Shown piece after piece: positions 1,854 to 61,339 of a stretch of DNA of 64,000 nucleotides (within the stretch, counting starts at the first letter, position 1; the number at the start of each line of letters is the position of its first letter). The notes under the pieces are model-generated. The model made no database searches and had not been told where the DNA came from. It worked only from the letters and a program-made list of their open reading frames with translations. The position numbers were made by a program, and so were the translations under genes. The DNA is taken from contig NC_088714.1 in assembly GCF_963576615.1 (NCBI RefSeq), forward strand, positions 6,302,670 through 6,366,669. Reading direction: 5' to 3'. This DNA comes from Watersipora subatra. Its lineage: Eukaryota > Bryozoa > Gymnolaemata > Cheilostomatida > Watersiporidae.

Positions 1854-1993
1854 TCAGGTTATCAAAGCGTTTACTTGTATACCGAATAAGATGTCTTCCG
1901 TAAGGAGTTTGGTGTTGATGATGAAGATCCTTAATTCTTCTGCTCAGCTGGAATCTATACTGAGCAAACTTTTCTCGACACAACCTATGCAAC
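1854..1993 (-). CDS. Internal exon of a Bcl-2-like gene, copy 1
   Basis: This is a predicted 140-bp internal exon. On the minus strand it is preceded by a T-rich stretch ending in TTTTTTGTAG and followed by GTATGT. The frame enters with 2 bases owed (phase 2) and leaves with 1 base (phase 1), identical in length and phases to the exon at 35357-35496. The 46 codons include the motifs LCREKFAQYRFQL and RRIKDLHHQHQTP. Their spacing resembles the BH3-to-helix-3 stretch of Bcl-2/Bcl-xL proteins (a leucine, then EF and Y, then LH-TP), but the usual Gly-Asp of BH3 is Cys-Arg here. The next exons would lie beyond the left edge of the window. Only 11 of 46 residues match the paralogous exon. The exon call is well supported by the two-copy comparison. 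The Bcl-2 assignment is inferred from the downstream exons of copy 2. Confidence 0.6.
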
Positions 1994-3118: not shown

Positions 3119-4211
3119 AAGGGGAGTTTGAACAAATCTTGGAAGATATTACGCAGTTAAAAAATATTTTACTGTCCTTATAATATACAATTCCTATAGT
3201 GTAAATGTTCCTAGAACGGATTATTTACATTGTATGAGTGCCAACTATATTGGACAGTTTTTGCAATAGAAATCAATGTCTGTACACTTTGTTTGCAACT
3301 GGTATTGGTTAGCAATAATGAACTGTGTAACATTAAAAAAGTAACATTAGAAAAAAGATAAAAACGACAATTGCCGAAGAGAGTCAAAATGTTTTCTGAA
3401 CATGAAATAGGTTGCTTCTGGTCATAAAAGCAAACATCAACTCGGCATTTACAAAATGTAGAAATATTTAGAATAATTCAAATGTAATACTCTGGTTAAC
3501 ATTGGGTGCATGAGACAGCAAAAGTTTAATCATATGCATGATACAACTTTTGTGATATGAACTTCATCACTACTATTCAACTCTGCTTAAAGTATAAGAC
3601 TAACTCTACCCGGAAAATCAGACGTTTTCCCGAAAAGGTGCAGAATGTGAACCGATAGCAACTCATCTCAACTATTACAAAAGTTTGAGCATTTTTTACT
3701 CCCTAAAATTATGTACTGAATGGCAAGCAATTGCGTCAGATTCAAAAGAAACTCTTGATATCAACTCTAAACTAGTGTACCTCAGCGATGTTTACTAAGG
3801 TAAAACATAAAACTTGTTAAACTAAGACCAATTAACTAGTCTATCCAAACTAGACTGAGTAGACAAACCGATGGTTTCTGTTGGCGAACACTCAGCGGGT
3901 CACACATAAAAGAATTGTGCATCCATTGCTTAACAAAACTCCTTAGGTTTTAAAAACTCAAGGTTAGGCCTCTCCCCTGACTATCGTAAAACCATACTTC
4001 CCTGTAATAAACGTATCCTTTGATAACTTGTACTACTTTCCTGCCGGTAGCAGCCATCGTTGATTTAATTTATTGATGATTAATTTATTAAACTTTCATT
4101 TTGAAATTAAAAATTTTATAAGTTATTTTAAACTGATGACATCATTACTATTTACAGTGAAAAAACAGCACATTTTTATCTTTCAAATATTTTAAGCATA
4201 GAACTTCTAGC
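3119..4211. other. Non-coding sequence shared with copy 2 (35690-36430)
   Basis: No gene recognised. About 3520-3610 aligns at high identity with 35695-35785 (shared ATATGCATGATACAACTTT and GTATAAG-CTAACTCTACC). About 3760-4060 aligns more loosely with 36085-36420. The sequence is therefore part of an old segmental duplication rather than a unique region. Confidence 0.6.
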
Positions 4212-21044: not shown

Positions 21045-22133
21045 TGAGGTAAAGTAAATGCATAGAAAAGTAAATTCGTGAAATAGTAAATGTGTGGAAA
21101 GTAAATCTGTGGAATAATAAATGTGTGGAAAAGTAAATGCGTGGAAAAATAAATCTGTGGAAAAGTAAATGTGTGGAATAGTAAATGTGTGGGCAGTAAA
21201 TGTGTGGAAAAGTAAATGTGTGGAAAAGTAAATGTGTGGAAAAGTAAACGTGTAGAAAAGTAAATGTGTGGAAAAATAAATGTGTGGAAAAATAAATCTG
21301 TGAAAAAGTAAATGTGTGGAATAGTAAATGTGTGGGAAGTAAATGTGTGGAAAAGTAAATGTGTGGAAAAGTAAATGTGTGGAAAAGTAAACGTGTAGAA
21401 AAGTAAATGTGTGGAAAAATAAATGTGTGGAAAAGTAAATGTGTGGAGAAGTAAATGTGTGAAATAGTAAATGTGTAGAAAAGTAAATGCATGGAAAAGT
21501 AATTGCATGGACGAGTAAATGCGCGGAAAAGTAAATGCATGGAAAAGTAAATGAGTGGAAAAGTAAATATGTGGAAAAGTAAATGCATGGAAAAGTAAAT
21601 GTGTGGAAAAGTAAATGCATGGAAAAGTAAATGTTTGGAAAAGTAAATGTGTGGAAAATTAAATGCGTGGAACAGTAACTGCGTGGAAAAGTAAATGTGT
21701 GGAAAAGTAAATGCTTGGAAAAGTACATGCATGGAAGAATAAATGTGTGGAAAAGTAAATGCATGGAAAAGAAAATGTGTGGAAAAGTAGATGCGTGGAA
21801 AAGTAAATGCATGGAAAAGTAAATGCATGGAAAAGTAAATGTTTAGAAAAGTAAATGCGCGGAAAAGTAAATGCGTGGAAAAGTAAATGCTTGGAAAAGT
21901 AAATGCTTGGAAAAGTACATGCATGGAAGAGTAAATGTGTGGAAAAGTAAATGCATGGAAAAGAAAATGTGTGGAAAAGTAGATGCGTGGAAAAGTAAAT
22001 GCATGGAAAAGTACATGCATGGAAGAGTAAATGTGTGGAAAAGTAAATGCATGGAAAAGAAAATGTGTGGAAAAGTAGATGCGTGGAAAAGTAAATGCAT
22101 GGAAAAGTAAATGTGTGGAAAAGTAAATGCTAG
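21045..22133. repeat. 16-bp minisatellite, about 68 copies
   Basis: Units AAGTAAATGTGTGGAA and variants with GCATGG, GCGTGG or GCTTGG in place of GTGTGG. The right part (21700-22130) shows a higher-order block containing GTACATGCATGGAAGAG that repeats about three times with the same order of variants. The left part shows a different block with GTGGGCAGTAAATG spacing changes. Long minus-strand frames (FHTFTFPHIYFS-like) are produced by the repeat and are not genes. Confidence 0.97.
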
Positions 22134-22937: not shown

Positions 22938-23702
22938 TTATCCAACCCATCTTGGAAAGCCAGTGCAAAAGCGTGCATGTCTTGTCATTTCTCCTTGACC
23001 AGTACTCTCATAAGTACATAGGTTATTCAAGCACCAGTAAGCCTGACATAAAAGACATCGGCCAGTCAGAACTGCTATTCTCGGTTTGAAACCCTTACAG
23101 TGAAAACACATATTAGGGTTAGCATGATAATAGTGCTGGTTGAGTAAATGTCTAGCTATATTGGTACGCCTCCCAACTCCAGTGAATTCTTTATTACAGC
23201 CTGGTTCGAGGCACCAAAGTCTGTTACAGTTCGGGCACTCTCCTCTTAATTGCCCAAATATGCGAGTCTTCGGTTGTCCGCATCCACCTTGACAAACTGG
23301 CATTCCAGGCAGTGCAACAGGACCAGCAGCAACTGCTGCTGCAGCTGCGGCAGCAAGAGCAAGGGCAGCTGCAGCACCTATAGCAACAGCAACACCTGGT
23401 ACCACTGGAGGCGGAGCGGCTGCTGCACCTCCAGCAGCACCAGGTGCCACTGGAGGTGGCGCCGCTGCTGCACCAGCAGCAGCTGCTGGAGCTGCTGGTG
23501 GTGCAGCGGCAACGGCACTTCCAGCAGCACCAAACGCTGCCGGTGCAGGCGCAGCTGCAACACCGCCTCTAGCGGCAGCTACTGCAAGTGCTCCAGCAGG
23601 AGCGCGTGGAGCTACAGGTACAAATGCTGGTCCTCCTAGTGGTTGTGCAGGTTGAGCAAAGAGTATAGCTCCTTGAGGGGCAACAGGCAGACCAGGAGCA
23701 GT
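22938..23702 (-). CDS. Terminal exon: Ala/Pro-rich protein with two Cys-rich fingers
   Basis: On the minus strand the acceptor TATTACAG is followed by 254 codons in phase 0 and a TAA stop at 22938-22940. Residues 1-135 of the exon are Ala/Pro/Gly/Val-rich, coded by mixed GCA/GCT/GCC, so this is not a simple triplet run. Residues 137-246 hold two modules. Module 1 is C137-x3-C141-x14-C156-x2-C159-x4-C164-x4-C169-x15-H185-x4-H190. Module 2 is C199-x2-C202-x13-C216-x2-C219-x4-C224-x4-C229-x12-H242-x3-C246. Both share the core G-x-C-x2-C-x3-W-C-x4-C (GECPNCNRLWC and GRCLLCQAYWC). This is consistent with two metal-binding folds arising by internal duplication. I do not recognise the family; nucleic-acid binding is an inference. 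Upstream exons are not identified: a SINE and a TIR element lie directly upstream. Confidence 0.72.
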   Translation of the reverse strand, partial: TAPGLPVAPQGAILFAQPAQPLGGPAFVPVAPRAPAGALAVAAARGGVAAAPAPAAFGAAGSAVAAAPPAAPAAAAGAAAAPPPVAPGAAGGAAAAPPPVVPGVAVAIGAAAALALAAAAAAAVAAGPVALPGMPVCQGGCGQPKTRIFGQLRGECPNCNRLWCLEPGCNKEFTGVGRRTNIARHLLNQHYYHANPNMCFHCKGFKPRIAVLTGRCLLCQAYWCLNNLCTYESTGQGEMTRHARFCTGFPRWVG

Positions 23703-29299: not shown

Positions 29300-30965
29300 T
29301 GGCAGTCAAGCTGCTCAGTTTCTTTACCGAATTGATGGTTACCGGACTGAGCAGTCTTTTTTCTGTCTAAGCCAACTTGGTTTGCGGTCATTTTTCTGGT
29401 CACACCGCAGTTGGCTTTTTGTTGTTAGGAGTGGTGTTAACAACTCATCTTTGTCTGGGGGGCCCTCAACTTGTAGTTCTTGGTTTGGTTCTTTTTTTGA
29501 TGCTGCAGCAGCTAGTCTCAAAATCCGTTCTGTCATTTATATAGAAACACAACAAAGTGTTGCATAAAATGGAGTCTGCTTCTGCTGATGCTTGTAATGA
29601 AGCAAGCAATGGCGTGCTGGTCTTTTGTATTTTTCAGCACAGCTGCCACATTTTCCAACGTTTGTGCAAAAAGAGCAAAGAGCATACGACTCTTACAATG
29701 CCTTTTTTCTGTCGGTCTTGAGTGGTTGGAGAAGTCAATATCCATAGAAGTTTCATTTTTAAATTTTTTGCAAAAGGGGCTCAAAATTGGCAAAAGAAAC
29801 TCAAAATTGGCAAAAGAAGCTAAACTCTGTTGCCAGCTGATTATATCCTTGTAACTAATACACGACAGTTTTTGATTGCTTAGTTGCGAGGTCATATGCT
29901 ACTTTGTATGTCATAAGGTTTAACTTGCCATAATAACTTGTCATTGAATTTCAAGGAGCTTTCTCGCCTGTAACGCCGATCTCATTCATTACTTCTTTTT
30001 CAAAACACCATTCCTTGTAACCAACAATTTCATACTATGTTAAATTGGTTTAAACTTGCTGCCACCTTTATAGCAGCTTCAAATGGCTTTGGAACACCTA
30101 TCTCAGTGGCATTATCTTTCTTGGCTAAAGTAGATTGTAGATAGTAAAAGTAAAAGTAGATTGCCGAAAGTAAATTCTTGACTATCAGTGAGTACATTCA
30201 TTTAGATGAGCTGCTCCTACAAAGATGGTTCGTTACAAGTTGTCATTCTTTATGTCATTTTGTAAAGTGTGAATAGCTGTGATCAATTCGGGCAAAATTG
30301 CGGAGTCACAAAAGAATGACACAGTAGCTGCTGTTTAGCCTTGGGTAATTCAAACAGGTTGCTTGTGGCAGGCCTTCTTGGCAACTCTCTATTATTTCCA
30401 AAAGGTAATAGTTTCGTTTGGTCACCCGGCAGTGCATAATCATCTCTGTATGTGCTGGTATCAACGTCACCATATACCACTTAGATTTTGCGTTGAAGTA
30501 GGTGGCCCTGCCTGTCTACACAAGTCAGTAGCTTTCCATCCATTTAGACAACAGGCTGTTTAAACTCCTAAAAGCACTCGTGGACAAATAAAAATTGCAT
30601 TCTCACAATGGGGTCTTCAATAATCAGGCATCCGCATATGCAGGCCGTATCAAACAGCAGTCTTCCCCAAAAAAGAAGTAACTTGTTGGGTGAGTTTGCC
30701 TGCAGCCAGCTGGGTCTTCCTAATTGTACCCAAAAAGATCAAGCTTCGAATACTTTTTGTAGTTGCGCCAAGTCATTTAACTGGCAACCTTCTGGCCATA
30801 TAAGTGTCTGGTATTCCTGCTTGGTGGGTTGAAGGTCAGCCCAACTGCTTTCAAGGCAGGCTTCTGACCACATTGCTCAGACAAAACTAAGTTAGTGGGG
30901 TCACAAGTTCTCATTGCGGCCACTAGAGTAAAAGAAACCGGAAAGACTTCTTTACATTGAACCAC
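29300..30965 (-). pseudogene. Decayed coding sequence, family not recognised
   Basis: On the minus strand several protein-like stretches follow one another with stops and frame changes between them. In reading order they are: FTLVAAMRTCDPTNLVLSEQ (about 30930), then RHLYGQKVAS and LNDLAQLQKVFEA. Next are DGKLLTCVDRQGHLLQ (about 30520) and VYGDVDTSTYRDDYALPG (about 30470). Last are AKKDNATEIGVPKPFEAAIK (about 30100) and KSRMLFALFAQTLENVAAVL (about 29690). The order, spacing and composition suggest one gene or element broken by many mutations. I recognise no catalytic motif and no flanking inverted repeat. It could be a transposon-borne gene or a processed host pseudogene. Confidence 0.35.
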
Positions 30966-32337: not shown

Positions 32338-32502
32338 CCATCCACCACCGTAGTTGATCACCCAATTGTGTAAGGTATCGCCAGCGAGTCCCACTCGATT
32401 TGTTGTGAATTCATGAATTAGCCACTCAAAGACATCAAAGGTCCCCTGAAGGTCATTCGCTTGTAGATACAACGTCATCTGGTTTACTGCGAACTCAAAC
32501 AG
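32338..32502 (-). CDS. Bcl-2-like gene copy 2, exon with end of BH1 and BH2
   Basis: A predicted 165-bp exon, 55 codons, phase 0 at the start. It is bounded on the minus strand by ATTTTGTAG and by GTAAGTTG. It begins LFEFAVNQMTLYL, which continues the BH1 segment from the upstream exon. After a helical stretch (TFDVFEWLIHEF) comes TLHNWVINYGGGW, which matches the BH2 pattern W-[IV]-x-x-x-G-G-W. The exon ends exactly after this Trp. In BCL2, BAX and relatives a conserved intron splits BH2 at the same residue, which supports the family call beyond sequence similarity. Bcl-2 proteins regulate apoptosis at the mitochondrial outer membrane; whether this one promotes or blocks death cannot be told. 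Confidence 0.72.
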
Positions 32503-32861
32503 CTACAAAATTCACAATAAGGCTTTATGAATTACTGCAGCCTCTCAAAAAGTGTTTATGTAGATATATAATGCGACAGTGTATCTGTTACAATCCAACC
32601 TAAAGATTTTGAGAAATCTGGAAAATCGAACGCAAGCAATAATTTTCAATGAATGCTTGAACACCCTGAATTACCTATGTGAGCAAGCATAATTATTTTA
32701 CATAACGGAAACAAAATGACCTATTTTAATAGAAAAGTTGTAATATGTCAATAGTATGCAGAAATAGAAATTTTTAATCTATAATAATTGAATAGCTGCC
32801 TCTGCCATTGCTGCTAATATTGTATGTAAATCAAACAACTATGTATACCTACCCTTATTGT

Positions 32862-32922
32862 GTTCTTACTAGGTAAAATCCAACTAACCTGTTGGGTTAG
32901 TTGGATTTTACCTAGTAAGAAC
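32862..32922. other. Perfect 28-bp inverted repeat with 5-nt loop
   Basis: Arms 32862-32889 and 32895-32922 are exact complements with no mismatch, separated by TGTTG. The left arm starts GTTCTTACTAGGTAAAATCC. It lies in the intron between the two BH1-coding exons. Such a perfect hairpin is either very recent (replication-slippage or template-switch product) or maintained. Transcribed, it would form a 28-bp stem, a possible small-RNA precursor or cruciform. No function is shown. Confidence 0.95.
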
Positions 32923-32939
32923 TAACACTTATTTATTTG

Positions 32940-33125
32940 AATGCTATAGTCCTCTATTTTTAACCCTTTCACTATTTAGTAGTGGTCAAATAGATGCATG
33001 CATTGAATTTTTGAAATATCTCTTCAGAAATTTGCGGAGATAAATTTAACGCTCTTGCGAGCAAAGCGATGTTGACAATATTTGGCTCTCTCCTTTGGAT
33101 AAAGCGACATTAAACCTTATAAATT
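32940..33125. repeat. Short dispersed repeat related to 11290-11500
   Basis: Shared pieces are CCTCTATTTTTAACCCTTTC, TAGTAGTGGTCAAATAGATG and AAAGCGACATTAAACC. The third relative is the 84-bp array at 12655-12857. The copies are too diverged to define ends. Confidence 0.6.
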
Positions 33126-33227
33126 ATACTAAAGAGACTAGTTCATGATATGCTTACACTTAGTACTGATAAAATAATCATATCCTGATCATCATTACCA
33201 ATCTGTCTAGTATCTGACAACACTCAC

Positions 33228-33355
33228 AGTTATTATTTTTATCCATGAAATATTTGCATTAGGAAATATTCTTCCCATTGCTCCATTCCTAACAGCCACT
33301 GCTGTGTTTACTGAAATTGTAGCTGGAGGCGCGATAGCTCCTGCTCCGAGTACTC
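33228..33355 (-). CDS. Bcl-2-like gene copy 2, exon with start of BH1
   Basis: A predicted 128-bp exon, bounded on the minus strand by TTGATTTTAG and by GTGAGT. It takes one base from the previous exon and ends in phase 0, so it joins both neighbours without a frame break. The 42 full codons begin VLGAGAIAPPATISVNT and end RIFPNANISWIKIIT. Joined to LFEFA of the next exon this gives a BH1-like sequence. In family members the pattern is [ML]F-x-[DS]-G-x-[IF]-N-W-G-R-[IV]-V-A-[FL]; here the Asn is Ser and Gly-Arg is Ile-Lys, so it is divergent. The insert before BH1 is longer than in vertebrate relatives and rich in small residues. Confidence 0.68.
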
Positions 33356-33469
33356 CTAAAATCAACCATCAAAACATCAGCTAGAAGTTACCATTAGCTA
33401 AAGCCTTCAATCACCTGTCAATGTCAATCACCTGTCAGTGTTTATAACGCTTGCAAGATTTTCAGTTGG

Positions 33470-34905
33470 TTACATCCTTAGAGTTACAGATGGACTCGCT
33501 ACAGTCAACCATCTTCCACAATTACAGAAGAACAACCACTTGCTAATACAGTCAACCATCTCTTACAATTACAGATTGACAAACATTTGCTAACACAGTC
33601 AAACATATTTTACAATTACAGATTGACAACCACTTGCTAATACAGTCAACCATCTCTTACAGTTACAGATTGACAACCACTTGCTAATACAGTCAACCAT
33701 CTCATACAATTACAGATTGACAACCACTTGATAATACAGCCAACCATCTCTTACCATTACAGATTGACAACCACTTGCTAATACAGTCAACCATATCTTA
33801 CAATTACAGATTGACAACCATTTGCTAATACAGTCAAACATATTTTACAATTACAGATTGACAACCATTCGCTAATACAGTCAACCATCTCTCACAATTA
33901 CAAATTGACAAACACTTGCTAACACAGTCAACCATCACAGATGGACTAGCTACAGTCAACCATCTTTCACAATTACAAAAGAACGACCACTTGCTAATAC
34001 AGTCAACCATCTCTTACAGTTACAGATAGTTTAGCACTTGCTAATACAGTCAACCATCTCTTACCATTACAGATCGTTTAGCACTTGCTAATACAGTCAA
34101 CCGTCTCTTACAGTTACAGGTACTTTAGCACTTGCTAATACAGTCAACCATATCTTACAATTACAGATAGTTTAGCACTTGCTAATACAGTCAACCATCT
34201 CTCACAGTTACAGATAGTTTAGCACTTGCTAATACAGTCAACTATATCTTACAATTACAGATAGTTTAGCACTTGCTAATACAGTCAACCATCTCTTACA
34301 ATTACAGATCGTTTAGCACTTGCTAATACAGTCAACCATCTCTTACAATTACAGATCGTTTAGCACTTGCTAATACAGTCAACCATCTCTTACAGTTACA
34401 GATAGTTTAGCACTTGCTAATACAGTCAACCATCTCTTACCATTACAGATCGTTTAGCACTTGCAAAGACAGTCAACCATCTCTTACAATGACAGATCGT
34501 TTAGTACTTGCTAATACAGTCAACCATCTCTTACAGTTACAGATAGTTTAGCACATGCTAATACAGTCAACCATCTCTTACAGTTACAGATAGTTTAGCA
34601 CTTGCTAATACAGTCAACCATATCTTACAATTACAGATAGTTTAGCACTTGCTAATACAGTCAACCATCTCTTACAGTTACAGATAGTTTAGCACTTGCT
34701 AATACAGTCAACCATCTCTTACAGTTACAGATAGTTTAGCACTTGCTAATATAGTCAACCATATCTTACAATTACAAATAGTTTAGCACTTGCTAATACA
34801 GTCAACCATCTCTTACAGTTACAGATTGACAACCACTTGCTAATACAGTCAACCATCTCATACAATTACAGAATGACAACCACTTGCTAATACAGTCAAA
34901 CAATA
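33470..34905. repeat. 47-bp minisatellite, about 30 copies
   Basis: Units contain CACTTGCTAATACAGTCAAC, CATCTCTTACAGTTACAGAT and a variable end, either AGTTTAG (middle part) or TGACAAC (both outer parts). The two unit types are arranged in blocks. It lies in the intron between the exons at 33228-33355 and 35357-35496. The shared words ACTTGC, TACAGTCAA and TTACAA show it is related to the 48-bp array at 1-832 in the same intron of copy 1. Confidence 0.96.
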
Positions 34906-35356
34906 AATTTTGATTGTCTATTGATTAGGATGGATATCTTTGGACAAACTAAACTTTATGACTTGAATAACTGATTTTTTTCAACAAGTTGAACAACTCC
35001 TCAACTCTATCTTAATGAATTAGATATTTAACTAAAAATATGGATACCTAGAGCTGCTGCTAAATAGGTAAAATTAAATTTCTAATATTGTGACAGCTTT
35101 TGAATCATTTTACATGGGTGACTTATAGTTCTAGTTTTATCCAGCTTTTCACCTTGTGTTCTTTTATCGCTAACTTTGATTTAATAGATCTGATTACTTC
35201 TGAACCCACGCGGTACACCTCATGTAGGGGTATCAGCAAGCATCACAACATTATAATAATAATAACAACAACTGTTGATAACGATAACAGTTTTTACTAA
35301 CATACAAGTGCAAAAAACATAATCGGGACAATCAGAAGCAGGGCAAATAAACATAC

Positions 35357-35496
35357 TTTTATCATCAAGGCTCTGAACGACAGAGTTGATAAACGCTATT
35401 GTAGAACCAGCTTGCTGTGGATCATAAAGATTTGCAATTCTTATGTTCAGCTGTGGTTTCAAAGGCTGAAAGGTTGCAGGGCACACTTGTTCCAAC
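35357..35496 (-). CDS. Bcl-2-like gene copy 2, internal exon (BH3 region)
   Basis: A predicted 140-bp exon between TTTTTTACAG and GTATGT on the minus strand. It has the same length and phases (2 in, 1 out) as the exon at 1854-1993. The 46 codons include LEQVCPATFQPLKPQL and NIRIANLYDPQQAG. Its exit phase matches the exon at 33228-33355, giving a continuous frame of about 144 codons over three exons. Its position just upstream of BH1 corresponds to BH3 and helices 2-4 of Bcl-2 proteins, but the BH3 Leu-x3-Gly-Asp core is not conserved. The upstream exon is uncertain. Confidence 0.66.
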
Positions 35497-37190
35497 CTGT
35501 AAAAAACCAATCGATCGATTTCAATTACAGAGGTTGAAATTTTGTTACAGTGAAAATTAGCCTTGTAGAATATGGTAATAGATGAAAAATTATTAATTAA
35601 TAATAATTAGTAATTATTATGCCATCATACCTTTTATTAAATTTGGTATAACGGCATAGAATAGTTTGTATCTTTGGTTAAATAAAGGCGAGTAAAATGA
35701 ATATGCATGATACAACTTTAGTGATATGAACATTATCACCACTATTTAACTCTGTGTGAAGTATAAGGCTAACTCTACCTTGAAAAATATATGTTACAAA
35801 AATTTAAAAGAATTTCTTAAAATAAGGTAGATAATGGTTTATGGGCAAGACATAAATGAAAGCTGTGGTATAAATTAAATTATATCATGAATGTGTAAAA
35901 TGTATAATACACCGCTAATCTTTCATCTATAGATAACTCTAGTAGAGTCAATTCTACTACTTGGTACTGTTCTATTGGCATGCAACTGGGCCAGATTCAA
36001 AGGACACAACAGACACAAGAGACACAAGAGACACAAGAGACACAAGAGACACAGGAGACCCAGGACACTCAGCAGACACGGCTGATATCAACACTAAACT
36101 GGTGTACTAGAGTGCTGCTCATTAAGATAGAACACGAGACTGTTGACTAACATCATAATTAATAGTCTAATCAAATTAGACTGAGTATACAAAGTGATGA
36201 GCCCAGGTGGCAAAAAGTCGGAAGACCATCCATGTAAAATCTCGCATTAAGTTAATTACAGAAATCAGTCATATCACCAGAAATCATCAAGAACCTTGAC
36301 ATCGTAGACAGCTTGCTGCATAACCAAAACATAGTTTTAAACTAAAACAATACCTCCCTGTGGTAAATGTAACCTTGTATAACTTCTACTACGGTTCTGC
36401 CTGCAGCCATCACTAGTTTATAAACCTTTCGTTAAAAAAATTAAAGATTTTTTATGCTCTACTAAAATGATGACATCATTACTATTTGTATAAAGAATGA
36501 TAGATGTATGATGCCCACTCGCAATCAGGGATGTAACCTTGAATCATGCTGTGAAAATCTGTTTGTAGACAGGTGAAAACGAAAAACAGGCAAAATGGCT
36601 TTTTCATCAAATATAGTTTTTGTCAGTGAGTGTTACATGTAGGTTCTTGAATTATCTACATGTATCTTCATGCAGCTTTATAAATTTTCCTTTAATTATT
36701 TTGATGCAAGACAAAAGGTTGCGCAATTTTGTAGTATACATGTACATCATTTGGGTAGGACACAAAATCCATCCTGCCCCATGATAAGCAAAAGATTTAT
36801 AATGAACACATTTGTCTAAATATTGTTGTTGTTCAGCGAAGTATAGTTCAAAGTACTAAGAAATAAACTACCCAAAATTTTAAACTAACAGCTGCAAGTT
36901 GACCACTTCTGAGTGCACTAAGTTTCTCACACTAGTCTTGGACGAAACAGTCTAACATGATCATCTGTAGTCAGGGATATATCAAGTATTGACATGATGA
37001 GTCTGTTTGTCAAGCTCTTCAGGGCAGAGGCTCCTCTGAACCCCTGAAACTGACTCAATGAGCAGTCAGGGTTTAATAGAAATCAGGTTAAGAACTACAC
37101 TACTGTTATGTAGCTAAAAAGCTATGACTAAAATTTCTGCTTTAAGAAAAGGTATTAGAGTCTAATATGAGACCGAGTACATAAAACACC
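35497..37190. other. Upstream intron of Bcl-2-like copy 2, with a 9-bp minisatellite
   Basis: No certain exon. It is homologous in blocks to 2000-6280 but lacks the 34-bp and 26-bp arrays of copy 1. About seven units of GAGACACAA lie at 36001-36060. The best conserved block is about 36880-37010. A LINE inserts at about 37190. Confidence 0.55.
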
Positions 37191-38795
37191 GGCAAAAATT
37201 TCCACTGTTAGAAAATAATTAGTGAGATTCGAAAGATGCCAGGCAACTGTAATAACTGAGATTTTAAACTCCAGCTTAACAACTTCTCAAGTACCAAGTA
37301 AAATGCAGATAGCTAAAGTAAAACCCTTGTTTAGAAAAGGTTCAAATAAAATTTGCTTTAGTTACAGACCAGTTAGTTTGCTACCAGTGCTAAGTAAGAT
37401 AATTGAAAAAGCTGTAAATAAGCAGATTATGGAATACCTTGAGAGTAATTTACTGCTTAACGATGGGCAATATGATTTTAGGAAAAAGCGCAGCACCAAT
37501 GATGCACTAATTAAATTGACTAATAATGTTTTAAAATCCTTAAACGATGGTAAAAGTGTTCTTGGCATCTTTCTAGATTTTAGTAAAGCCTTTGACGCAA
37601 TAGATTATAACATATTGTACTCAAAACTCCCCAATCTTAATTTTGACATCACCACAAATAACCGGATCGAAAGCTATCTAACCAAACGCAAACATCACAC
37701 TATTATTGGTAACACTTTATTATCCATACTAGATATAACATGTGTTGTACCTCAAGGTTCCATCTTTGGTCTAATTCTCTTTTTAATTTACATAAATGAT
37801 TCAACACATGTCACCAACTTTTTCACACCTTTACTCTATGCAGATAACACTAATCTCTTTTTCGAATCCTCTAACATAAACGAGCACATAGATTGTTTAA
37901 ATAACCAACTTCTTGCTATTCAATACTGGTGCACTTCTAAAAAACTCACCTTAAACGTTTATAAAACTAATTTCATGTTAGTAAAAATCCCCCAAAATAA
38001 ATTTCATCTAGCTAACACTCATCCCTTTTTCATTTTCAACAAAACAATTTGTCAGACAGATCACACTAAATACTTAGGTATTTTCATTGATTCTAATCTC
38101 ACTTGGAAAAAACCCATCGAATATTTACATGTACTAAAAAAACTGAGACCCTTATCAGGCTTAATCTACCGCACATCTGAATATCTACCGCGCAAGCCTC
38201 TGCTTTTGATATACATACAATTCCATGGTTAATTCTAAACTTTCAGATTGCATTGAGGCATGGGACAATGCACCTCCCACCCATCTTACAAATTTAATAA
38301 CACTTCAAAAATGCATGGCAAGGACCATCCACAACAAACCTCACACCTCACCCACACCAAACCTCTTTTCAATTCATCATCCATACTACCTACCAGTTCA
38401 CTACATTCATATCGCATTATACTTTTAGCTCCTCATGAATTTTATTGTAATTAAATTCTTCGCACAATACATCTAACCTGATTATCAAAATCCTGTCTAA
38501 ATCTACCTTAATCTTCTTCCCGTGCAGGCCATCGCAGAGTGGATTTCCAACAAGCCATTTTTTGGAATCAACTCCTTAAGTCTAGTAAAGGCATAGAGAA
38601 GGTAGCCAGTTTCAAGAAAAAACTCAGGTTGTATCTTTTAACATGTGAATAAAACCGATGACAACTAGCTATGCTATTGCGTATTATGGGCTTCATCACT
38701 CCTCCAGCTTTTTTCTTTTGCTCAACTAATTTTGTTGATGAAAATAAATCACAAATCACAACTAAATAATAATAATATGAGTAATGATAATAATA
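37190..38795 (+). mobile_element. 5'-truncated non-LTR retrotransposon (CR1/L2/Jockey-like)
   Basis: Contains the RT domain and C-terminal end described in the next entry. It ends in an AATAATAATAAT-rich tail at about 38765-38795, as CR1/L2-type elements often do. The endonuclease part is missing, the usual result of incomplete reverse transcription. It splits the homology between the two Bcl-2-like locus copies: homology to copy 1 resumes near 39480. Confidence 0.85.
37222..38652 (+). pseudogene. LINE reverse transcriptase, catalytic site mutated
   Basis: The first 336 codons (37222-38232) carry RT motifs in order: YRPVSLLPVLSKIIEK (about 37365), FLDFSKAFDAIDY (about 37575), VPQGSIFGLILF (about 37750), YADNTNLFF (about 37840) and KYLGIFIDSNLTWKK (about 38070). 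The catalytic YADD is YADN here (GAT to AAT), so the copy is dead. A frameshift near 38228 moves the thumb/C-terminal part into another frame (SKLSDCIEAWDNAPPTHL). A third segment near 38530-38652 ends FKKKLRLYLLTCE before the TAA stop, the usual C-terminus of this family. Confidence 0.88.
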
Positions 38796-41999: not shown

Positions 42000-43119
42000 T
42001 TACTGTTGCTGCAGAAGATATTCTTGAAAATTTGCCGAGCATACCGCTAGTGTATCACGGAAGCGCTTGAAGGTAGACAATGTTCTTTGTCTGACCGAAT
42101 GACAAGAGAATTTATAGGCCATTTTACTGCCTACTCGGGATAGCGCAACATACAGCTGTCCATGTGAAAAGCAAGGTGTTAAGAGGTGAATGCGACAGTT
42201 TTGAGGGTTTGACCTTGGGATTTGTTGATAGTCAAAGCAGATGACAGTCGAAAGGAAATTAAATACGTTTAGATCAAAATGGCACATTTGTCGGAATTAG
42301 TGGTATTCTAGGGTAAAAAACCTTTTCACCCATCGCAGCTCTGGTAAGCACTGTGGCACAAATAAGATTTGGTGATAGATTTTTGATGATCAATCTTGTT
42401 CCATAACAAAGTCAAGGTAAATCCAAATTTTGAAGAATCATAACTGGAGCACCGTCCCGTAGTTGAAGATTATGAGGAGGCATACTGGCAGGCTGTAAAG
42501 AGTTTAAGAATTCTGTAGGATAATTGACAGAGTCACTCTCTTCAACAACACAGTCTATGCTAAGAAATGAAGTTGTAGTGCCAGAGGTTTTTCAGGAAGT
42601 AGTTGATAGATGTGGTCAACAGTGTCTTTTTTAGGTGCCAGAATTACCCTTTCTTTTAGCCACTGGTGCTGAAGATAGTTTTCGTGAATACTATCTTCAG
42701 CACCAATTTCGGGTACACTTTTTGTAGTAAATTGTCTTCTGTGTCTACAATAAGTTTGCAATTTTTAGGAAGAGAGATTAGCCCAATGTTAACTGGTAGC
42801 CTTCCATCACCAATATTTAAGAGTTGTGCAGAAAACTCTCCCGAAGCGTCATCCCCTTGCAGATGCAGTTTCATATTTTTCGTTAGTTTACAAACTTCTA
42901 CACAGTGCCATATATAAGAATCCTTTAAGCAAGCTTTGAGTTTATCAGCTAGAGTTCCTCTAGGTATGACGGGTAGGGTTTGAAAAAAGTTGCCAGCAAA
43001 AAGTACACATACACCACCCATAAGCTTGTAACTGTTATAAAGGTTTTTAAGTGTGTGGTCTAGAGCTTAATTGTTGCTTTATGCGCCATTGTGCATTCAT
43101 CCCAAACAATTAATTTCGT
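42000..43119 (-). pseudogene. Helitron PIF1-like helicase, C-terminal part
   Basis: From the right: LIVWDECTMAHKATIK (Walker-B-like, about 43110), GGVCVLFAGNFFQTLPVIPR (about 43020), then MKLHLQGDDASGEF (about 42870). Next are [19 protein letters not shown] (about 42530) and LSRVGSKMAYKF (motif VI-like, about 42140). This order is that of RepHel helicases. Frameshifts and stops separate the pieces, for example between 42656 and the next frame, so no functional helicase is encoded. Its first part with the Walker A motif is at 51207-51541 beyond the inserted retrotransposon. Confidence 0.85.
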
Positions 43120-43755: not shown

Positions 43756-45036
43756 CTAGCACATATCATTTGATTTGACTGGTAAAAGTTTAATCAATTT
43801 CACAACTGGTCTGATTAGAAATTTTCCAGAGTTTTTTGCCTGTACACGGTTGCCTAACAGTACTTTAGCTGAGCGTATTTGTCCATCTTGAGATGTGTAA
43901 CAATCAGAAACTCGGCCTTTTAACCAGGCATTTCTTGTTGTTTGGTCATCTTTGATTAATACGATGTCACCTACTGCTATATTATTTGTTGTCTTGTGAA
44001 CCCAATTTTGACGAGAATGCAGTTGGGATAAGTATTCTGTCTTCCATCTTTTCCAGAATACATTAGCAATGTGTTGAACCGCACGCCAGCGCTTGCGACT
44101 GTACATATCGGACTCATCAAAGCTTCCAGGGGGCGGTAGGGTAACATCAGATTTCATAGTCAGAAGCATGTTAGGACTTAGAGGCATGTCTTCTTCAGTA
44201 ACCACAGATAGTGGTCTGGAGTTTATGATGGCCATGACTTCGTACATCAAGGTGCGAAGGTGGCTTGTGTCAAGCCTATCACTATGAGATTTCAAAAGAG
44301 ACTGAAGGACATTTCTAGCAGTTCAGATCATACGTTCCCAAACGCCACCCATGTGACTGGCGCTGGGAGGATTGAGTTTAAACTCAAGCACGCCTTTTTC
44401 TGTTAAATCTTGAAAAGCTCCAACAAAGTTGGTGCCCTGGTCACACCAGATTTTTCTAATAGGCCCGCGAATGGCTATAACGTTTCGAATTCCGTTCACA
44501 AAGGCTGTTGTGCTCATATCGTCCAAAACTTCAAGGTGCACTGCTCTGCTTGCAAGGCATGTTACCATGAGTCCATATCGTTTTAGCTCTGTCCTTCTAT
44601 CTTTGACCAAGAATGGTCCAAAACAATCGATCCCACAATAGCTGAAGGGAGGCGATTGGCTAGATCTTTCATGAGGAAGTGAGGCCATTTGGGGTGTTGG
44701 AGGTTTAGCTCGGTGGGATCGACAAGTAATACACTGGTGTATCAAAGAGGCTATTATACTTCTGGCACCTATTATCCAGTATCCAGAAGATTTCATCTTG
44801 GCCAATGTGAAGCATCTTCCTTGATGGGCCACTTGCTCATGAAGATGCTGAAGAAGAAGGCGAGTAAAATGCCCACTTTTGGGCAGCAGAATTGGATGTT
44901 TCTCAGAAAAACTGAGAGCTGTGCTGCGATTGAGGCGGCCTCCTATTCTCATTACTCCATTTTTATCCAGAAAAGGGTTCAGGTTGAAAACTGTACTCTT
45001 TGGATTTAGTGGCTGCTCTTTTGTCAGAGATTGCAC
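43756..45036 (-). pseudogene. BEL/Pao integrase region
   Basis: Starts with the zinc-binding part (HLHEQVAHQG and ITCRSH), then the catalytic core. Catalytic acids are visible as GIDCFGPF (about 44620), WCDQGTNFVGA (about 44440) and MGGVWERM (about 44340), so D, D and E are retained. The C-terminal extension with KRWKTEYLSQLHSRQNW (about 44010) and VGDIVLIKDD is typical of BEL integrases. Frames change at about 44323 (stop after the E motif). The protein would insert element cDNA into host DNA. Confidence 0.88.
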
Positions 45037-46640
45037 TTCTGAAAATGCTCAGCTTGTATGCATTTAACTATGTACAGGAGTGGTGCATTAATTGGCAGTT
45101 GAGTGCCCTTTAACTTGGCTACTCTATTGAGAAAGAATTTAGTGACTTTGATAGCTTTATTCCAACTAGAGAATTGCTGTAGTCGCTGATAGAGAGTTTG
45201 ACTGGGACTAGAAATCGTTTGGACACAAAGGGATTTGACTTCAGGGTCATCAGGTTTTACTTCGGGTGTCAACTGATCAGGAAATTGCATAGGTTCCTTC
45301 CAGAGAAAATCTGGACCTGTAAGCCAGTTAGATTTTAACAGCTGAGTGATAGTCAGGCCTCTTGAAGTGTGATCGGCAGAGTTTTGATCTGTAGGGACAT
45401 AGCGCCAATTTTCAGGACTTGAATTGTCTCTCACCTGCTGAACTCTATTAGTCACATAAAGATGAAACTTTTTAGTTGTGTTTTTAATGTACCCAAGAAC
45501 AATTTAAGAATCTGTCCAAAAGGTTTCTGTGGTATCAATCTTTAGCTCAGATTTAATAAATCTGGACACTTTAGCTGCGGTAACCGCTGCTTGCAGTTCC
45601 ATGCGCGGAATGGTTATGGGCTTGATTGGTGCTACTCTGCTCTTGCTCATTACAAGTGAACAATTTACTTGTCCTTGTGTGTTTACTAGTCTGAGATAAC
45701 TAACCTCACCGTAACCACGAGTACTTGCGTCACAGAAATGATGTAGCTCAGCCTTGAAGATGTCGCCAAAGTCTGTCGGTTGATAACATCTTTGGATGCT
45801 TATGTTTGTTAAGTCTAGAATAGAAGCTTTCCATTCCTTCCATAGTGACAATAAATCACCTGTCAGGGGATCATCCCAAGAAACTGAACTTCTACACATA
45901 TCCTGTAGAATGTTTTTGCCAATTAAAATATATGGCGAGAGGAATCCAAGAGGGTCAAAGATTGAGGCCACCGTAGATAGTACACCCCGTCGGGTGTCTG
46001 GTTTTGTAGCAGTGTCATGGTGAAAGGTAAAATTATCCTTTTCAGTGTCCCATAGAATACCAAGTGATCGCTCTTGGAGAAGTGGATCAGAAGACAGGTC
46101 AAGACTAGCAATGGCACGGGCGCACTCACTTCTTGGAAGTTGTGACATCACTTCGCGGCTGTTGGACGCTATTTTGTGAAGTCTTAACTGTCCGGCAGCA
46201 CTTAGTTCACGTGTCTCATGAATGAGAGAAACTGCTTCAGCCTCATTGAAGACACTTGTGAGACCGTCATCAACATAAAAGTTGCGGTGAACAAATTGAT
46301 GAGATGCAGAATGGCCAGACAATAATGAATTATATTGATCGGCGAGAAATCGAAGTCCATATGTTGCGCAAGCGGGCGAAGATCTAGCCCCGAAAAGATG
46401 CACTGTCATTTTGAAAGTAGCTAGCTTTCCATCACAATCATACCAAATAAACCGTAAATAGTCTTGGTGCTCTGGTTTCACCTTGAATTGGTGAAACATC
46501 CGTTCTATATCACCCATGAAGGCTACAGGGTTCAAACGAAATCTAAGAAGAATGCCTTGAAGATCATTCATGTGATCGGGTCCTTGTAGTAGAAAGTCAT
46601 TTAAACTGACTCCTCCCACTTTAGCAGCGCAATCAAACAC
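45024..46640 (-). pseudogene. BEL/Pao reverse transcriptase and RNase H
   Basis: The main open segment (45504-46640) has GDIERMFHQFKVKPEHQDYLRF (shown in part as GDIERMFHQF), FYVDDGLTS with the intact YVDD catalytic site (about 46280), and IFDPLGFLSPY (about 45950). The RNase H-like stretch HFCDASTRGYGEVSYLRL (about 45740) and IPRMELQAAVTAA follow. A stop at about 45504 splits the RNase H domain; it continues in 45024-45455 (ENWRYVPTDQNSADHTSRG, WLTGPDFLW). The upstream part of RT (46640-47270) is in other frames, so there are frameshifts. Confidence 0.9.
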
Positions 46641-47275
46641 AAAGCGAATACGGTCAGGCTTGCGAGGATGAAAGACACCGAAATGAGGAATTTACCAAAA
46701 GTTGGTAGTGTCGTCGGTTGCCAGAACTGCTTCCCCTTTTGTGATGATGTCAGACATAAATTCATGGTATTGCAGTTTATATATGGCATCTTTTTTAAAC
46801 TTTTTTTTAAGAAGATGAAATCTGTGCATTGCAGTGGTTTTTGTGTCAATGCTGAGCGGTTTAGCCTTGAATGGTAATGGCATTGTTATGTAACTGTTAT
46901 GTTTCTGCACAGAAGCAATTAAATAGAGTATTAAATTAGAGAAATGGTTTATTGCACACTCCAGAGACAACTGATTTGATAACAGAAAACCCAAGTATTT
47001 ATATGTTTGGTCATAGAAAAGCTTTGTAAAAAGCTACAAGCATTATTAATAGCTATAATGAGACAGTACTATATAATATTAGCTTGTATAAAGCTTTAGC
47101 TAAAAAGCATAATGTTTGTTGGCAAAGTACCAGTAATACTTGGCACTTGCATGACAGTAACCCTGCTTATCTTTATGAATTTGCTCTTTCATAATTTTTA
47201 GGAATTTGAGATCATCGATTGACATTGTCTTTATCTCATCAGCGTGATTTGTTTGAAAGTCAGAACTAAGAACTT

Positions 47276-48129
47276 TTAATATTTGTTGTTCGAATTTATC
47301 TGTGTTGGGAAGTCAGTAGTTTCTGTTTTGATTTTAAAAGAGATACATTTTCTAGTCGTTGGCTGTTGTACTGCCAAGTTTACTATTGTCCCAGATTGAA
47401 TGGTATGAGCGCAACTGTTGTAGCTGTGTGCAGAGTTTGTGGCGTTTCCCATCAAGATCCAACCCAAGTCAGTGAAACGAGCAAAGGGCTCATGGTCTTC
47501 TCTACTGATTTCTTGTCTAGATATAAACACATGTGGAAGATTGTTTCCAATCAACAATCCGAGCTCGAGGCTGGCTGCTTTTTGAGCAGAGATGAACTGA
47601 GAAGCAAGATGTTGTGTGGCCAGTTTTGCACTGATGTGGCATTGGGTATCTCTTCTGAGTTAAAAGGTATTTTGCTTGTGCTTATGCACGGTGGAAGTCT
47701 ACTTGCTCTGCTCTGATGGTAGCCACGAACCAGCAGTCCTGAGGCCGCTTGGCGCATTGAATCAGTGCCCTCAGTATCAGTAAGTGTACTAATTTTCATA
47801 GCTGCATCACAGGTCTGTACATTGAGCTTGTCAAGGGTATTTTGAGTGATGAAGGTTCGATTTGAACCGGAGTCTAGCAAGGCAAACACCAGAACTTCTT
47901 TTTCAGGATTATCTTTGGTTGAAATATACACTGATATTGTCCATGACATGATATTAGCTGGTCTGGTGTCAGAACAGTTTAGGGCCGTTGCTGATTTCAC
48001 ACTGCCTGTTTGTATTACTCCTATAGGTGTCTTACTTTTGCTGTCTTTATCTTTTACGTAGTATTCATGAAATACTGTGAGGTGCTGTTGGTTGCAATTT
48101 TCTTTATGCATTTCTCTGGAGACCGACAA
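47276..48129 (-). pseudogene. BEL/Pao aspartic protease region
   Basis: The active-site motif ALLDSGSNRTFI is near 47870, in the position expected between the zinc knuckles of gag and RT. The start of the segment includes a third Cys/His motif (HKENCNQQHLTVFH). It continues in a shifted frame toward GLLIGNNLPHVF-like sequence at 47550, so at least one frameshift separates protease from the linker. Confidence 0.8.
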
Positions 48130-49910
48130 TCAGGCATTAGGTGTCCAGGCTTAGAACATGCAAAACATAAGTTATGGCTCATGAAAAACCTTTCGGTTTC
48201 GAAGTGTATTTGCTTACCAAGCTTGAAACAAGTACCCGTCGTATGATTGTTCATGTTGCAGTTCAAGCATGGGTATTTGTTTTGTTTCAGACCATTGGCA
48301 TTGTAACTATTGTGAGACTTACCGTCAGCTGTGGTTGCTGTCGAAAAAGACATGATTTTGTTGCTTTTGTCGCTTTTACCTTTTACTGACTTATCTGTTT
48401 TTCCAAAGTCTTGATACACTTTAGTCAATGTGTTGCTTAATGTGTCAGATTCATGAACTAGAAAGTCGATGAACTCTTGGAGTGGTGGAAACTTGCTCAA
48501 TTTCTTCTCCAGTTTTGTGGCCTTTGCTGTCCATCTGTGAGCAATATGTAATGGAAGTTTTTGTATCAGCTGCTTGTTTACAGATTTAGAACCAAGGTTC
48601 AAATTACTATCACATTCTGAACAAACTTCAAAAAAGTCAATGAAGTCTTCTAACTGTTCGCCGTCATTTGCTTCAATTTTTTGCCAGCTGAGTAACTTTT
48701 CCTCCATGGCTTCCGCCACTATTTCTGGTTTGCCATATTTGGTGTCCAGTTTCTTCCAGGCAAGCATCCATGCACTTTCTGTTTTTCTATAACTGAGGCC
48801 CTCTATTTTTTGCCAGGCCTTGCCTGTAACATATTGCTGCAGTTTGAGCCATTTTTTGCCTGGTGTACATGAACTGAAATCAAAGGTTTCGAAAAAGGAG
48901 GCCATCTACTGCTGATACTTAAGTGTCTCACCCTTAAATATGGGTGGTTCATCAGGACGCTGGCAAACCGTGTTGATTGCTTCAGCAAGAGCAACAGGAT
49001 CAAAGACTGTAGTAGGGATACTAAAAATCGTCATAGGAGAACTATCTGGGGAAGCTCTTGGAAGGCGCAGTGGTGTGATCACCTCATTGGCAGGCCGTTG
49101 TGATGTTTGTCAGAATAACTCATTTGAGTCTTTTAGCTGTGTTTGTCCTGAATTTAACTTATTGGTGACAGGAGGGCGCAACAATGACTCATTGTTATCT
49201 TCCAATTCTTCTGCTATTGCTTGTGCGTAAATCTGTTCATGTTGGCGCTCAGCTTCTAACCCTGCTTTTAATTTAGCTTGTGCTATCAGACTTTTATTCC
49301 GTTGAACTTGTGCCTGAAGTTGGAGGCTTTCCTCCTCAAGTTGTTGAGATTCTATCTCGGCTTGAAGCTGGGCTTGTTTAGTTGCGGCAGCAGCTTTTGC
49401 CTCGGCCTGCATGATTTTGAGTGACTGAGAAACTCAGCTCGAGCCTGATTTACTAGACCTGGATTGTCTAGAGGAAAGAAAGAATGAATTTTTGGATTTT
49501 ATGCTTTCTATGTCTGGCTCAGCGTGCGTGGTTCTTGTTACCAACTTATTCATACGAATTTCTAACTGGTCGATAACCTTCCTGTTATCAGCAAGCACGC
49601 AATCTATTTCTACAATGTCTTCCTTGTCAGGTTGTAAGTCGCTTTCATGAGCTTCTTTGTATGCACTATGCAGTTTTGTGATATTAACTGCACCTAATGT
49701 AATTTCTCCATGCATGCTGTTAAGCTGTTCATAGGAAAGTTCAATAGAGTTATCTTGCAAGTCATTTAATGTAGCTTTGTGACTTACACTGAGATTTTCA
49801 ATAGTTGCTTGTAACTCAGACTTAATTGACTGTATTTTTAGTCTTGGTGAAAACCTCCTACTGGTAGATTCTTCACTGTGAACAGAAGCGAGTTCTTCGC
49901 TATCAGACAT
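48054..49910 (-). pseudogene. BEL/Pao gag
   Basis: An ATG at 49908-49910 starts an acidic N-terminus (MSDSEELASVHSEES). Next comes a Gln/Ala-rich coiled-coil-like stretch (AQLQAEIESQQLEEESLQLQ in the 49110-49412 piece), then the core with WLKLQQYVTGKAWQKIEGL (about 48840). CCHC knuckles CLNCNMNNHTTGTC and CFACSKPGHLMPDC follow (about 48230-48130). All three pieces share one frame, broken by stops at about 49431 and at about 48904-49110. The knuckle end shifts frame into the protease segment. Confidence 0.85.
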
Positions 49911-50612
49911 GATTTAGTTTAGGAGAAAAAGCTTGGAACTCAACTCGTATTGATTTAACCCAATGAATTCGAGGACACAACTCCAAGAAGGTGGCAACGT
50001 GATCTGCACTATGGTCAAACCTGTCAGAATTTTCAGCTGAAAATTGTTCTATTTTTTAACTTGTTTATAGCTATCTTACTAAAAAATGCCAAAATCTTTA
50101 AGACAATGCACTAGGTTTAATTACAGTAGTTTTTACTGACAGCAATCAATACAGGATTTGTTTTGAAATTCATACCACAAATTTTCTCTGCAAGAAATCA
50201 ATTGAGACTATCACCCTTGTATGATTCACTGCCCAATGACCAGAATCTGCACTAGTAGAATTGCTTAATTGCTAATGCACACTATTTAGTGAACAATTCA
50301 ACTAGCTGCGTAAAAGGATTTATAAATCATTAAAAAACAAAACACAAAACAAAGTCAATTGCTGTTGTTTAAAGAAAAAAGAAAAGGTAATGCGACTTAT
50401 CAAGTTGGAAGTCAAGATGTCTCTGGCTGCGTGGCTCTAGCTGCTCGACTCTGGCTCCTTGGCATCACTTTTCCTTTGTAAATCAACGGAGTTTCACCTG
50501 GGCTGCTGGAGGCGAAATTAATGTTCATTGATATATATATGTATATATATATGTATATCCTATATACGTCTGGCAGTCCGATTTCACTTCCGTTAGTGTG
50601 TGTAAGTTTCAC

Positions 50613-51206
50613 TGTGGCGAATCCCCTAGTTCGTAGTTATATTGTCACGTACGGGTGATGAGGCATAGTGTATATTCTATTAAAAGTTTATTATATATGC
50701 TTGTCAACACCGTGAAACTACAATGAAACAATAACTCGATTGTCGATAAAGGTTATTGAAAGTATGCTAATTATACAGGTAGCCATCTGCAAAGCCATTT
50801 AGAAACATATAAAATAAAACACATAAAATAAAAATATAATATTTACCTTAATAACACATCCAGGAGATTGCTAAATAGTATGTGATTCTCCTTTTGTTTA
50901 ACTCTTGATTATATGTGTATGCGATAGATATTGGTGTAATGATGAAACTTAATACAGATAAAAGAAAGTATCAGCATCAAAAATGAGGCTTAAAAACTAC
51001 ATGTTGTTGGCTCAAAGGCTGACAAAACAATGACACCTAATCAAGCTGTATGGCACTGTGGCAAGTCAGACAGACCACACAAGACCATTAGACCACCCAA
51101 GATCAACTGGCATTCGCTCTGGGCAGGAACAGTGAATCACACAGGGTGACTAGATATTGCAGTGCACTATCAAATTAGGAAATTTAACAGACAGCAGAAC
51201 TTTACA
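50613..51206 (-). repeat. 5' LTR of the BEL/Pao element
   Basis: 594 bp, nearly identical to 43120-43715. It should contain the promoter of the element. Directly inside it (50530-50560, minus-strand leader) is a short TATA/TG microsatellite. Confidence 0.93.
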
Positions 51207-51560
51207 TTCGTGGTCTGTAATAATTGAGCCGATCCAGTACCTTTACGGATGTTGCTAACAGGAGTCTCCAGACATCCTATATCTAATGGTAATTTAAACA
51301 TGGAATGAGACGTTCTTCCACCTCCCAGCAACGTAGCGGCTGTACCTGAAGATGCGACAGCCAGTGCGACTTGTCGGTTAGATCTGATTTTAGCAAGCAA
51401 ATGATTGAGCAAGAATGTTTTACCAGTTCCACCAGGAGCGTCCAACAAAAAGATCGCTTCACATTCATCATTCACAGCTCTTAAAACCTTTCCACAAACT
51501 AGTAGGCATTTGATGATATAGTAAAGTTTGAGCAAACTCATCGTTTTGGCATGCTTTAAA
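51207..51560 (-). pseudogene. Helitron helicase, N-terminal part with Walker A
   Basis: Contains FLLDAPGGTGKTFLLNHLL (Walker A, about 51430) and AVASSGTAATLLGGGRTSHS (about 51340), the first motifs of PIF1-like helicases. The frame runs directly into the BEL LTR, where the target duplication marks the break. The continuation is at 43119. Confidence 0.9.
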
Positions 51561-56271: not shown

Positions 56272-56283
56272 TGTTTTTCTCAG

Positions 56284-61330: not shown

Positions 61331-61339
61331 GTCCAAGAG

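Follow-up and report, generated by a model that had tools for sequence, protein, structure and literature searches.

The stretch of the Watersipora subatra genome analysed here, 64,000 nucleotides long (C7:6302670-6366669, hereafter the window), carries, on its minus strand, a gene with four or more exons (Table 1). Judged from its sequence, the gene probably encodes a Bcl-2-like core with a remodelled groove, followed by an Ala/Pro-rich linker and a double Cys-rich module that replaces the usual membrane tail, and it is a member of a fast-diverging family. At this level the homology to Bcl-2, the structure of the gene, the number of its copies, the loss of the BH1 glycine and the co-occurrence with a Cys-rich exon are established. 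By descent the family belongs with the Bcl-2 core, and Bcl-2-like, Cys-rich fusion family would be an apt name for it.

Three core exons and their homology to Bcl-2

An earlier note on this stretch joined three minus-strand exons with matching phases into about 144 codons of a divergent Bcl-2-family gene. The coordinates, canonical splice ends and reading frame of that model have all been verified, and copies elsewhere in the genome agree with it: exons of 140, 128 and 165 nt yield one open frame of 144 amino acids, and AG and GT bound every exon, with TTTTTTACAG preceding and GTATGT following exon 1, GATTTTAG and GTGAGT flanking exon 2, and TTTTGTAG and GTAAGT flanking exon 3. The BH1-like and BH2-like motifs that had been named are present in the product. 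Exon 3 does end right after the BH2 tryptophan, at the GGW intron, which PMC8998228 describes as animal-wide, and GGW followed by GT occurs only once on the two strands of the window, namely at this exon end. What the model lacked was completeness, since a further exon downstream, exon 4, and a probable first exon upstream belong to the gene.

In the decoy scoring, two other acceptors for exon 2, at 33322 and 33340, obtained scores similar to that of the reported acceptor, which the copies of the gene favour. The exons, phases and splice sites recur in these copies (exon 3 in eight, exon 2 in seven and exon 1 in three, as well as in further copies), and this recurrence is independent support that confirms the predicted exons as real.

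Searched against Pfam, the joined 144 amino acids match a single family, Bcl-2 (E 0.0053), and exons 2 and 3 together match positions 28-98 of the 100 in its profile (E 0.004). The exons taken singly and the reversed sequence have no Pfam match, none of ten shuffled sequences matches Bcl-2 in Pfam, and on a 10-member Bcl-2 profile (seven human sequences and three BOK) the score of the whole 144 amino acids was reached by 1 of 20,000 shuffles. On the Bcl-2 profile exons 2 and 3 score 13.0 bits, which none of 22,901 other phase-consistent exon pairs in the window equals, the best of them reaching 8.6 (from 24,176 pairs in all, 872 were discarded because of a stop codon where the exons meet, and 403 were treated separately because they overlap the real exons). 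A PDB search with the single sequence places BFL-1/A1 on top (E 0.038; five of seven rows), and the product is identical to BFL-1 at 25 of 88 residues, with an E of 2e-7 for that single pair.

Several results weigh against this assignment. The single 144-residue sequence falls below the Pfam cut-off (17.7 vs 31.4 bits), and its hhalign comparison with an alignment of eight BOK proteins fails, at 3% and with a spurious alignment. Exon 3 folded alone is helical, and no Bcl-2 structure was matched in the fold search. NCBIfam has no match for the joined exons; when either of two trial downstream exons is included it returns weak bcl-2 matches (E 0.03 and 0.023), and as both do so, neither is singled out. 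A protein-database search with the 144 amino acids, in which only proteins of 79-252 amino acids were considered and a 398-residue product was thus excluded, gave 17 candidates, none of them at E<=10. Because the BOK comparison, the fold of exon 3 and the database search were negative, most weight is placed on the paralogues.

Once five paralogues are added, the relation to Bcl-2 becomes clear. The resulting six-member profile finds BFL-1 as its best PDB match (E 2.7e-5), with 59 of 60 rows belonging to the Bcl-2 family and MARK2 (E 1.2) as the exception, and Pfam matches Bcl-2 in all six members (best E 3.2e-5). An hhalign comparison of the family with eight canonical Bcl-2 proteins (two from the W. 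subatra genome, three BOK and three human) gives 95.9% and an E of 5.2e-9, and is collinear from before BH1 to GGW. The homology claimed in the earlier note is thereby borne out, and the profile search that it proposed does find Bcl-2 with the joined exons, below threshold when these stand alone and significantly with the paralogues.

The Pfam Bcl-2 model finds five places in the genome at E<=0.001. The ordinary Bcl-2 genes are two of pro-survival type, with BH4 to BH2 on one exon (L001 on C2 and L002 on C3), a BAX-like gene on C3, a BAK-like gene on C11, and a place on C9 that consists of two genes (L006 and L007). In the C9 pair the BH1 exon ends WGRIIL/ or WGRLAL/, where the slash marks the splice site, and the next exon starts with V, which corresponds to an intron between Trp+5 and Trp+6 in phase 0; the BH2 exon ends GGW/gtaagt or GEW/gtaagc. 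The gene in the window is split at the same BH1 residue and in the same phase (SWIKIIT/L). Chance resemblance of a protein unrelated to Bcl-2 would account for the sub-threshold single-sequence scores and the failed BOK comparison, but not for the results of the family profile, the exon-pair decoys, or the intron positions and phases held in common with WGR-bearing genes of the same genome, and is highly improbable.

In a tree of 21 sequences, the members from C7, C8 and C5 separate from all others, including BAX, BAK and BOK, with a support of 99 (62-94 within the group), and the family is given no tie to BAX, BAK or BOK; the C9 genes cluster with the pro-survival-type genes of the genome (support 88). 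Kinship with BOK is not supported by intron positions either: the BOK introns in BH3 (~LG/D) and before BH1 (~AG/ITW), which were taken from a comparison of two BOK isoforms and are ambiguous by one codon, are absent here, and only the GGW intron is common. A pro-apoptotic effector of the BAX/BAK/BOK type might be suspected from the spread of the BH motifs over several exons, since these motifs are reported to lie usually on one exon in pro-survival genes and on several in pro-apoptotic ones (PMC8998228, PMC7022251). The BH3 motif LxxxGD, needed in pro-apoptotic members, is absent, however, and BAX-like and BAK-like genes are present elsewhere in the genome. The nearest solved sequences are those of BFL-1/A1, no membrane-anchor exon was found, and the tree both separates the family from the effectors and joins the C9 genes, with their identical BH1 intron, to the pro-survival type. 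An effector is thus an improbable identity for this gene.

Two side observations concern the ordinary genes. The C9 group (C9:62298500-62318300) comprises three closely similar BH4-like exons (TTREILLDY[IV]RY[RK]LL) and two BH1-to-BH2 exon pairs, and in the BAK-like gene (L004/L010, C11:4629831-4629995) Met replaces the BH1 Trp (LSMGRIVALLQFG).

A family of related loci

With the 144 amino acids as query, 53 places in the genome were found at E<=10 (56 scored), 24 of them at E<=0.01; a member from C8, assembled from two exons ~10 kb apart, found 57 places at E<=1 (65 scored), of which 43 lie at E<=0.01. This amounts, at E<=0.01, to at least 28 exon-3-type loci (16 on C8, 9 on C7, 2 on C5 and 1 on C1) and at least 21 exon-2-type loci, where the counts are lower bounds and refer to loci and not to proven genes. 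Eight of the C7 loci, including the gene in the window, form an array of ~300 kb (6.298-6.599 Mb), all on the minus strand. The earlier note had missed this family, which cannot be seen from the window alone, and with it the paralogue whose exon 1 sits near the window's left end; exons 2 and 3 of this neighbour fall outside the window on that side (C7:6302139 and 6298529).

Relative to the nearest paralogue, dN/dS is 0.31 (Nei-Gojobori, exons 2 and 3, with exon 3 partial in five of seven copies), which shows coding constraint with respect to that copy; over 21 pairs of paralogues it ranges from 0.15 to 1.12.

The BH motifs and the groove

Both motif changes described in the earlier note are seen in the sequence: BH3 is without Leu-x3-Gly-Asp, exon 1 carrying VVQSLDDK in its place, and NWGR of BH1 has become SWIK. 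The absence of the glycine, a residue at the BH3 groove that is typical of Bcl-2 proteins though some members lack it, extends to every copy read. Among the 28 copies of exon 2 that were read (8 on C7, 18 on C8 and 2 on C5), the BH1 tryptophan is retained in 24, and the residue after it is never Gly, being Asn in 9, Pro in 7, Tyr in 6, and Ile, Cys and Ser in 2 each. The glycine is retained in all six other Bcl-2 genes read in the W. subatra genome. BH2 reads YGGGW in this gene, and GGW, RGW, NGW or KGW among the copies.

A motif scan for a better BH3 exon, extended upstream to 47 kb, matched a loose core seven times and a longer pattern four times. Several of these matches lie in transposon ORFs, and all were judged to be chance, including the most BH3-like one, in a 23-residue ORF at 43.6 kb.

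In human BCL2, the G145A change at the same BH1 position abolishes the binding of BH3 proteins (PMC6901440, PMC5841437). Together with the loss of the BH1 glycine, this reported effect supports the earlier suggestion that groove binding may be altered. As the BH1 glycine, the LxxxGD of BH3 and the usual anchor were all looked for and found to be missing, the gene is not classed as a canonical multi-BH member.

The Cys-rich exon downstream

A comparison with a copy from the array revealed exon 4. Of the 126 residues in its linker, 59 are Ala and 22 are Pro, and the two repeats have the spacings CxxxC..CxxC..CxxxxC..HxxxxH and CxxC..CxxC..CxxxxC..HxxxC, from which the module is putatively zinc-finger-like and metal-binding. 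Where the earlier note had expected a membrane-anchor exon left of 32338, the next exon found is that of the Ala/Pro-rich linker and the Cys-rich double repeat, and the usual anchor exon was not found downstream. A search for terminal exons in phase 0, either hydrophobic or resembling the family, turned up candidates at 31737, 28164, 28808, 25350 and 30515, none of which stood out; that at 30515 (30426-30515) has an inverted match in L026 and was regarded as a repeat. Exon 4 itself holds a 21-residue Ala-rich hydrophobic stretch (mean 2.36), a counterpart of which is, by eye, not evident in other copies.

The 128-residue Cys-rich part matches 117 places in the genome at E<=1 (130 scored), 39 of them at E<=1e-8. 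A Cys-rich exon of E<=1e-8 lies no more than 15 kb downstream on the same strand at 16 of the 28 exon-3 loci, where random placement on the same chromosomes would give 0.04 of 28. Of the 13 exon-3 loci with weaker matches (E above 0.01), 10 likewise have a Cys-rich exon within this distance downstream, such that one is present there at 26 of 41 exon-3-type loci (28 strong, 13 weak), and at one further locus the only such exon lies on a different side or strand; proximity to exon-3 loci in turn explains 26 of the 39 strong Cys-rich matches. In the C7 array, all eight copies possess a homologous Cys-rich exon, 3.5-12 kb downstream of exon 3, although for the copy at 6475k the nearest match, 3.5 kb away, is partial, and the whole one is 5.5 kb away. 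A phase-0 acceptor opens the Cys-rich exon at all eight loci read (seven array partners and one extra copy), no in-frame Met precedes the Cys-rich part at L061 and L065, and in two C5 copies exon 3 and the Cys-rich exon are only ~190 nt apart, phase 0 to phase 0.

These features bear on the question of whether the two parts form one protein, or whether two neighbouring genes, one Bcl-2-like and one Cys-rich, have been duplicated as a pair. Separate genes would be in keeping with the 3.5-12 kb gaps of the C7 array, and with the Cys-rich matches that numerous ORFs give on C6, C9 and C11, although no exon-3-type locus was counted there. They would not explain why the Cys-rich exon lies downstream on the same strand at so many exon-3-type loci and only elsewhere at one, why its acceptor is in phase 0 wherever it was read, why L061 and L065 have no in-frame Met ahead of it, or why the closely spaced C5 exons have phase-matched sites. 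Separate genes are therefore unlikely, and in the favoured single-protein arrangement exon 3 would be spliced to exon 4 in the mRNA.

The Cys-rich domain is also found in many ORFs of ~285 amino acids away from the counted Bcl-2-like loci, sometimes twice per ORF (C6 36-41 Mb, C9 19.5-20.9 Mb, C11, and C8 4-6 Mb). Extra copies of the exon stand beside two array genes, at C7:6420553 and 6471380/6471606; the stops in these matches suggest partial duplications.

The upstream end of the gene

The stretch of the probable first coding exon, which is placed tentatively, is conserved in all four copies compared (this gene, the C7:6298k copy, L023/L028 and L024). In the array copies L028 and L024 the donors of this exon, ACAG/GTAACT and ACAG/GTAAGT, join exon 1 in frame. 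In the present copy, as in its left neighbour, the donor is shifted by 4 nt in the downstream direction, and a direct join is out of frame in both. An alternative join, to an acceptor inside exon 1, was assessed by eye and is hypothetical. A conserved intron block upstream of exon 1, at 35681-35803, is probably not coding, because an alignment of four copies shows small indels of 1-2 nt.

The failure of this donor to join the main acceptor of exon 1 in frame tells against an intact gene, and a partly broken copy is possible for this reason. That the gene is a decaying pseudogene of the family is nonetheless rather unlikely, given that exons 1-4 run through 398 codons without a stop, that their splice sites are intact, and that dN/dS is 0.31 with respect to a nearest paralogue that has the same shifted donor.

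Proposed function

The protein would have a helical Bcl-2 fold, and there is about an even chance that it acts as a soluble adaptor, predicted neither to bind BH3 helices in the canonical manner nor to form pores of the BAX/BAK type. In such an adaptor, the Bcl-2-like domain would contact cell-death partners or paralogues through the remodelled groove or another face, while the Cys-rich module would bind a target. A role in the stress or immune regulation of cell death is a tentative suggestion, drawn from the tandem arrangement and rapid change of the genes and from the parallel of the IAP genes that are expanded in bivalves (PMC7831173). Equally speculative is the broader view of a new two-domain class, consisting of dozens of partly tandem, fast-changing bryozoan genes in which the BH3 groove has been abandoned family-wide, and whose products might be diversified adaptors in death or immunity that sense targets via the Cys-rich module.

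Other observations stand against the fusion and its proposed family. At 12 of the 28 exon-3 loci, the 15 kb downstream contain no Cys-rich exon of E<=1e-8, and the Cys-rich module has no significant family, its best Pfam E being 0.02 (in one of seven members) and its best PDB E 0.28; IBR_1 of Pfam appears in six of the seven, with a best E of only 0.11. The BH1 matches of several C8 and C5 copies are weak, at 3-11 bits (L036, L037, L041, L047, L049 and L056), and dN/dS is near 1 for some pairs of paralogues and rises to 1.12.

Among the literature matches listed, there was no description of bryozoan Bcl-2 genes or of such a fusion family. If the proposal is correct, a Bcl-2 core has become a large diversifying family, lost the glycine whose replacement by Ala abolishes BH3 binding in human BCL2, and gained a Cys-rich module. 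It would then become possible to test what a Bcl-2 fold can do when it lacks the standard groove, and to ask whether a colonial animal, whose zooids regularly degenerate and are rebuilt, can diversify its apoptosis regulators into a repertoire.

Other features of the window

The intron between exons 1 and 2 is for the most part filled by a minisatellite (Table 1). Further minisatellites lie at 1-823 (48 bp), 2744-3023 (34 bp), 4212-5310 (26 bp) and 21051-22129 (16 bp). Degraded transposable elements occupy 43759-49913 (-), 55237-59044 (-), 16774-18489 (-), 37219-38229 (+), 60517-61344 (-), and 42003-43066 and 51173-53351 (-). Their types are Pao/BEL (Pfam Peptidase_A17), Gypsy-like (RVT_1), hAT-type transposase, non-LTR-like reverse transcriptases and pieces of PIF1 helicase (Helitron-like), as assigned by tests of six ORFs and by eye for the others. 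One Pao ORF shows 95% identity to a Watersipora subatra protein across 90% of its length.

Table 1. Exons of the Bcl-2-like gene and associated features, in positions of the window
Feature	Position	Strand	Description
Probable first coding exon (tentative)	36354..36410	-	19 codons from ATG, MAAGRTVVEVIQGYIYHRE; BH4/alpha-1-like; donor GAG/GTATTG, phase 0
Exon 1	35357..35496	-	46 codons; alpha-2/BH3 region, BH3 degenerate, without LxxxGD; supported by splice sites, phase and a paralogue whose exon 1 shares these splice sites
Exon 2	33228..33355	-	Runs to BH1 IFPNANISWIKIIT; last residue BH1 Trp+5; phase 0
Exon 3	32338..32502	-	LFEFA to TLHNWVINYGGGW; BH1 Trp+6 to BH2 Trp; phase 0 at both ends
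Exon 4	22938..23702	-	254 codons and stop TAA; Ala/Pro-rich linker, then two Cys-rich repeats; phase-0 acceptor ATTACAG/ACT
Minisatellite	33500..34899		47-bp unit, ~30 units
Neighbouring paralogue, exon 1	1854..1993	-	140 nt, equal in length, similar splice ends
Neighbouring paralogue, match to probable first exon	3989..4057	-	MAATGRKVVQVIKGYVYYREVWF

Comparison with known systems

Within the same genome, the C9 pair resembles the gene described here in its phase-0 BH1 intron between Trp+5 and Trp+6 and in the intron after the BH2 Trp. Unlike this gene, the pair retains WGR, has GGW at BH2 in one member and GEW in the other, and clusters with the pro-survival-type genes. Among solved proteins, BFL-1/A1 (BCL2A1) is the best PDB match of both the single sequence and the family profile and is collinear from before BH1 to GGW, whereas it retains NWGR, is without a Cys-rich tail, and is identical at only the 25 of 88 residues noted above. 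The BH3 region of BFL-1 is not known to carry LxxxGD either.

The human BCL2 G145A mutant is comparable in the position changed, but that change was engineered, and the protein is standard in other respects. Natural replacements of the BH1 glycine occur as Arg in Trichoplax Bcl-2L4 and as Ser in mouse Boo, and are said to point to altered function or to change BH3 selectivity (PMC8998228); an altered groove or selectivity has been proposed or reported for them, with single residues in the two proteins as opposed to the six different ones found in the expanded bryozoan family. Finally, a cell-death regulator has also expanded massively in molluscs, lophotrochozoans like the bryozoans, in the form of the bivalve IAP genes (PMC7831173), which belong to an unrelated protein family.

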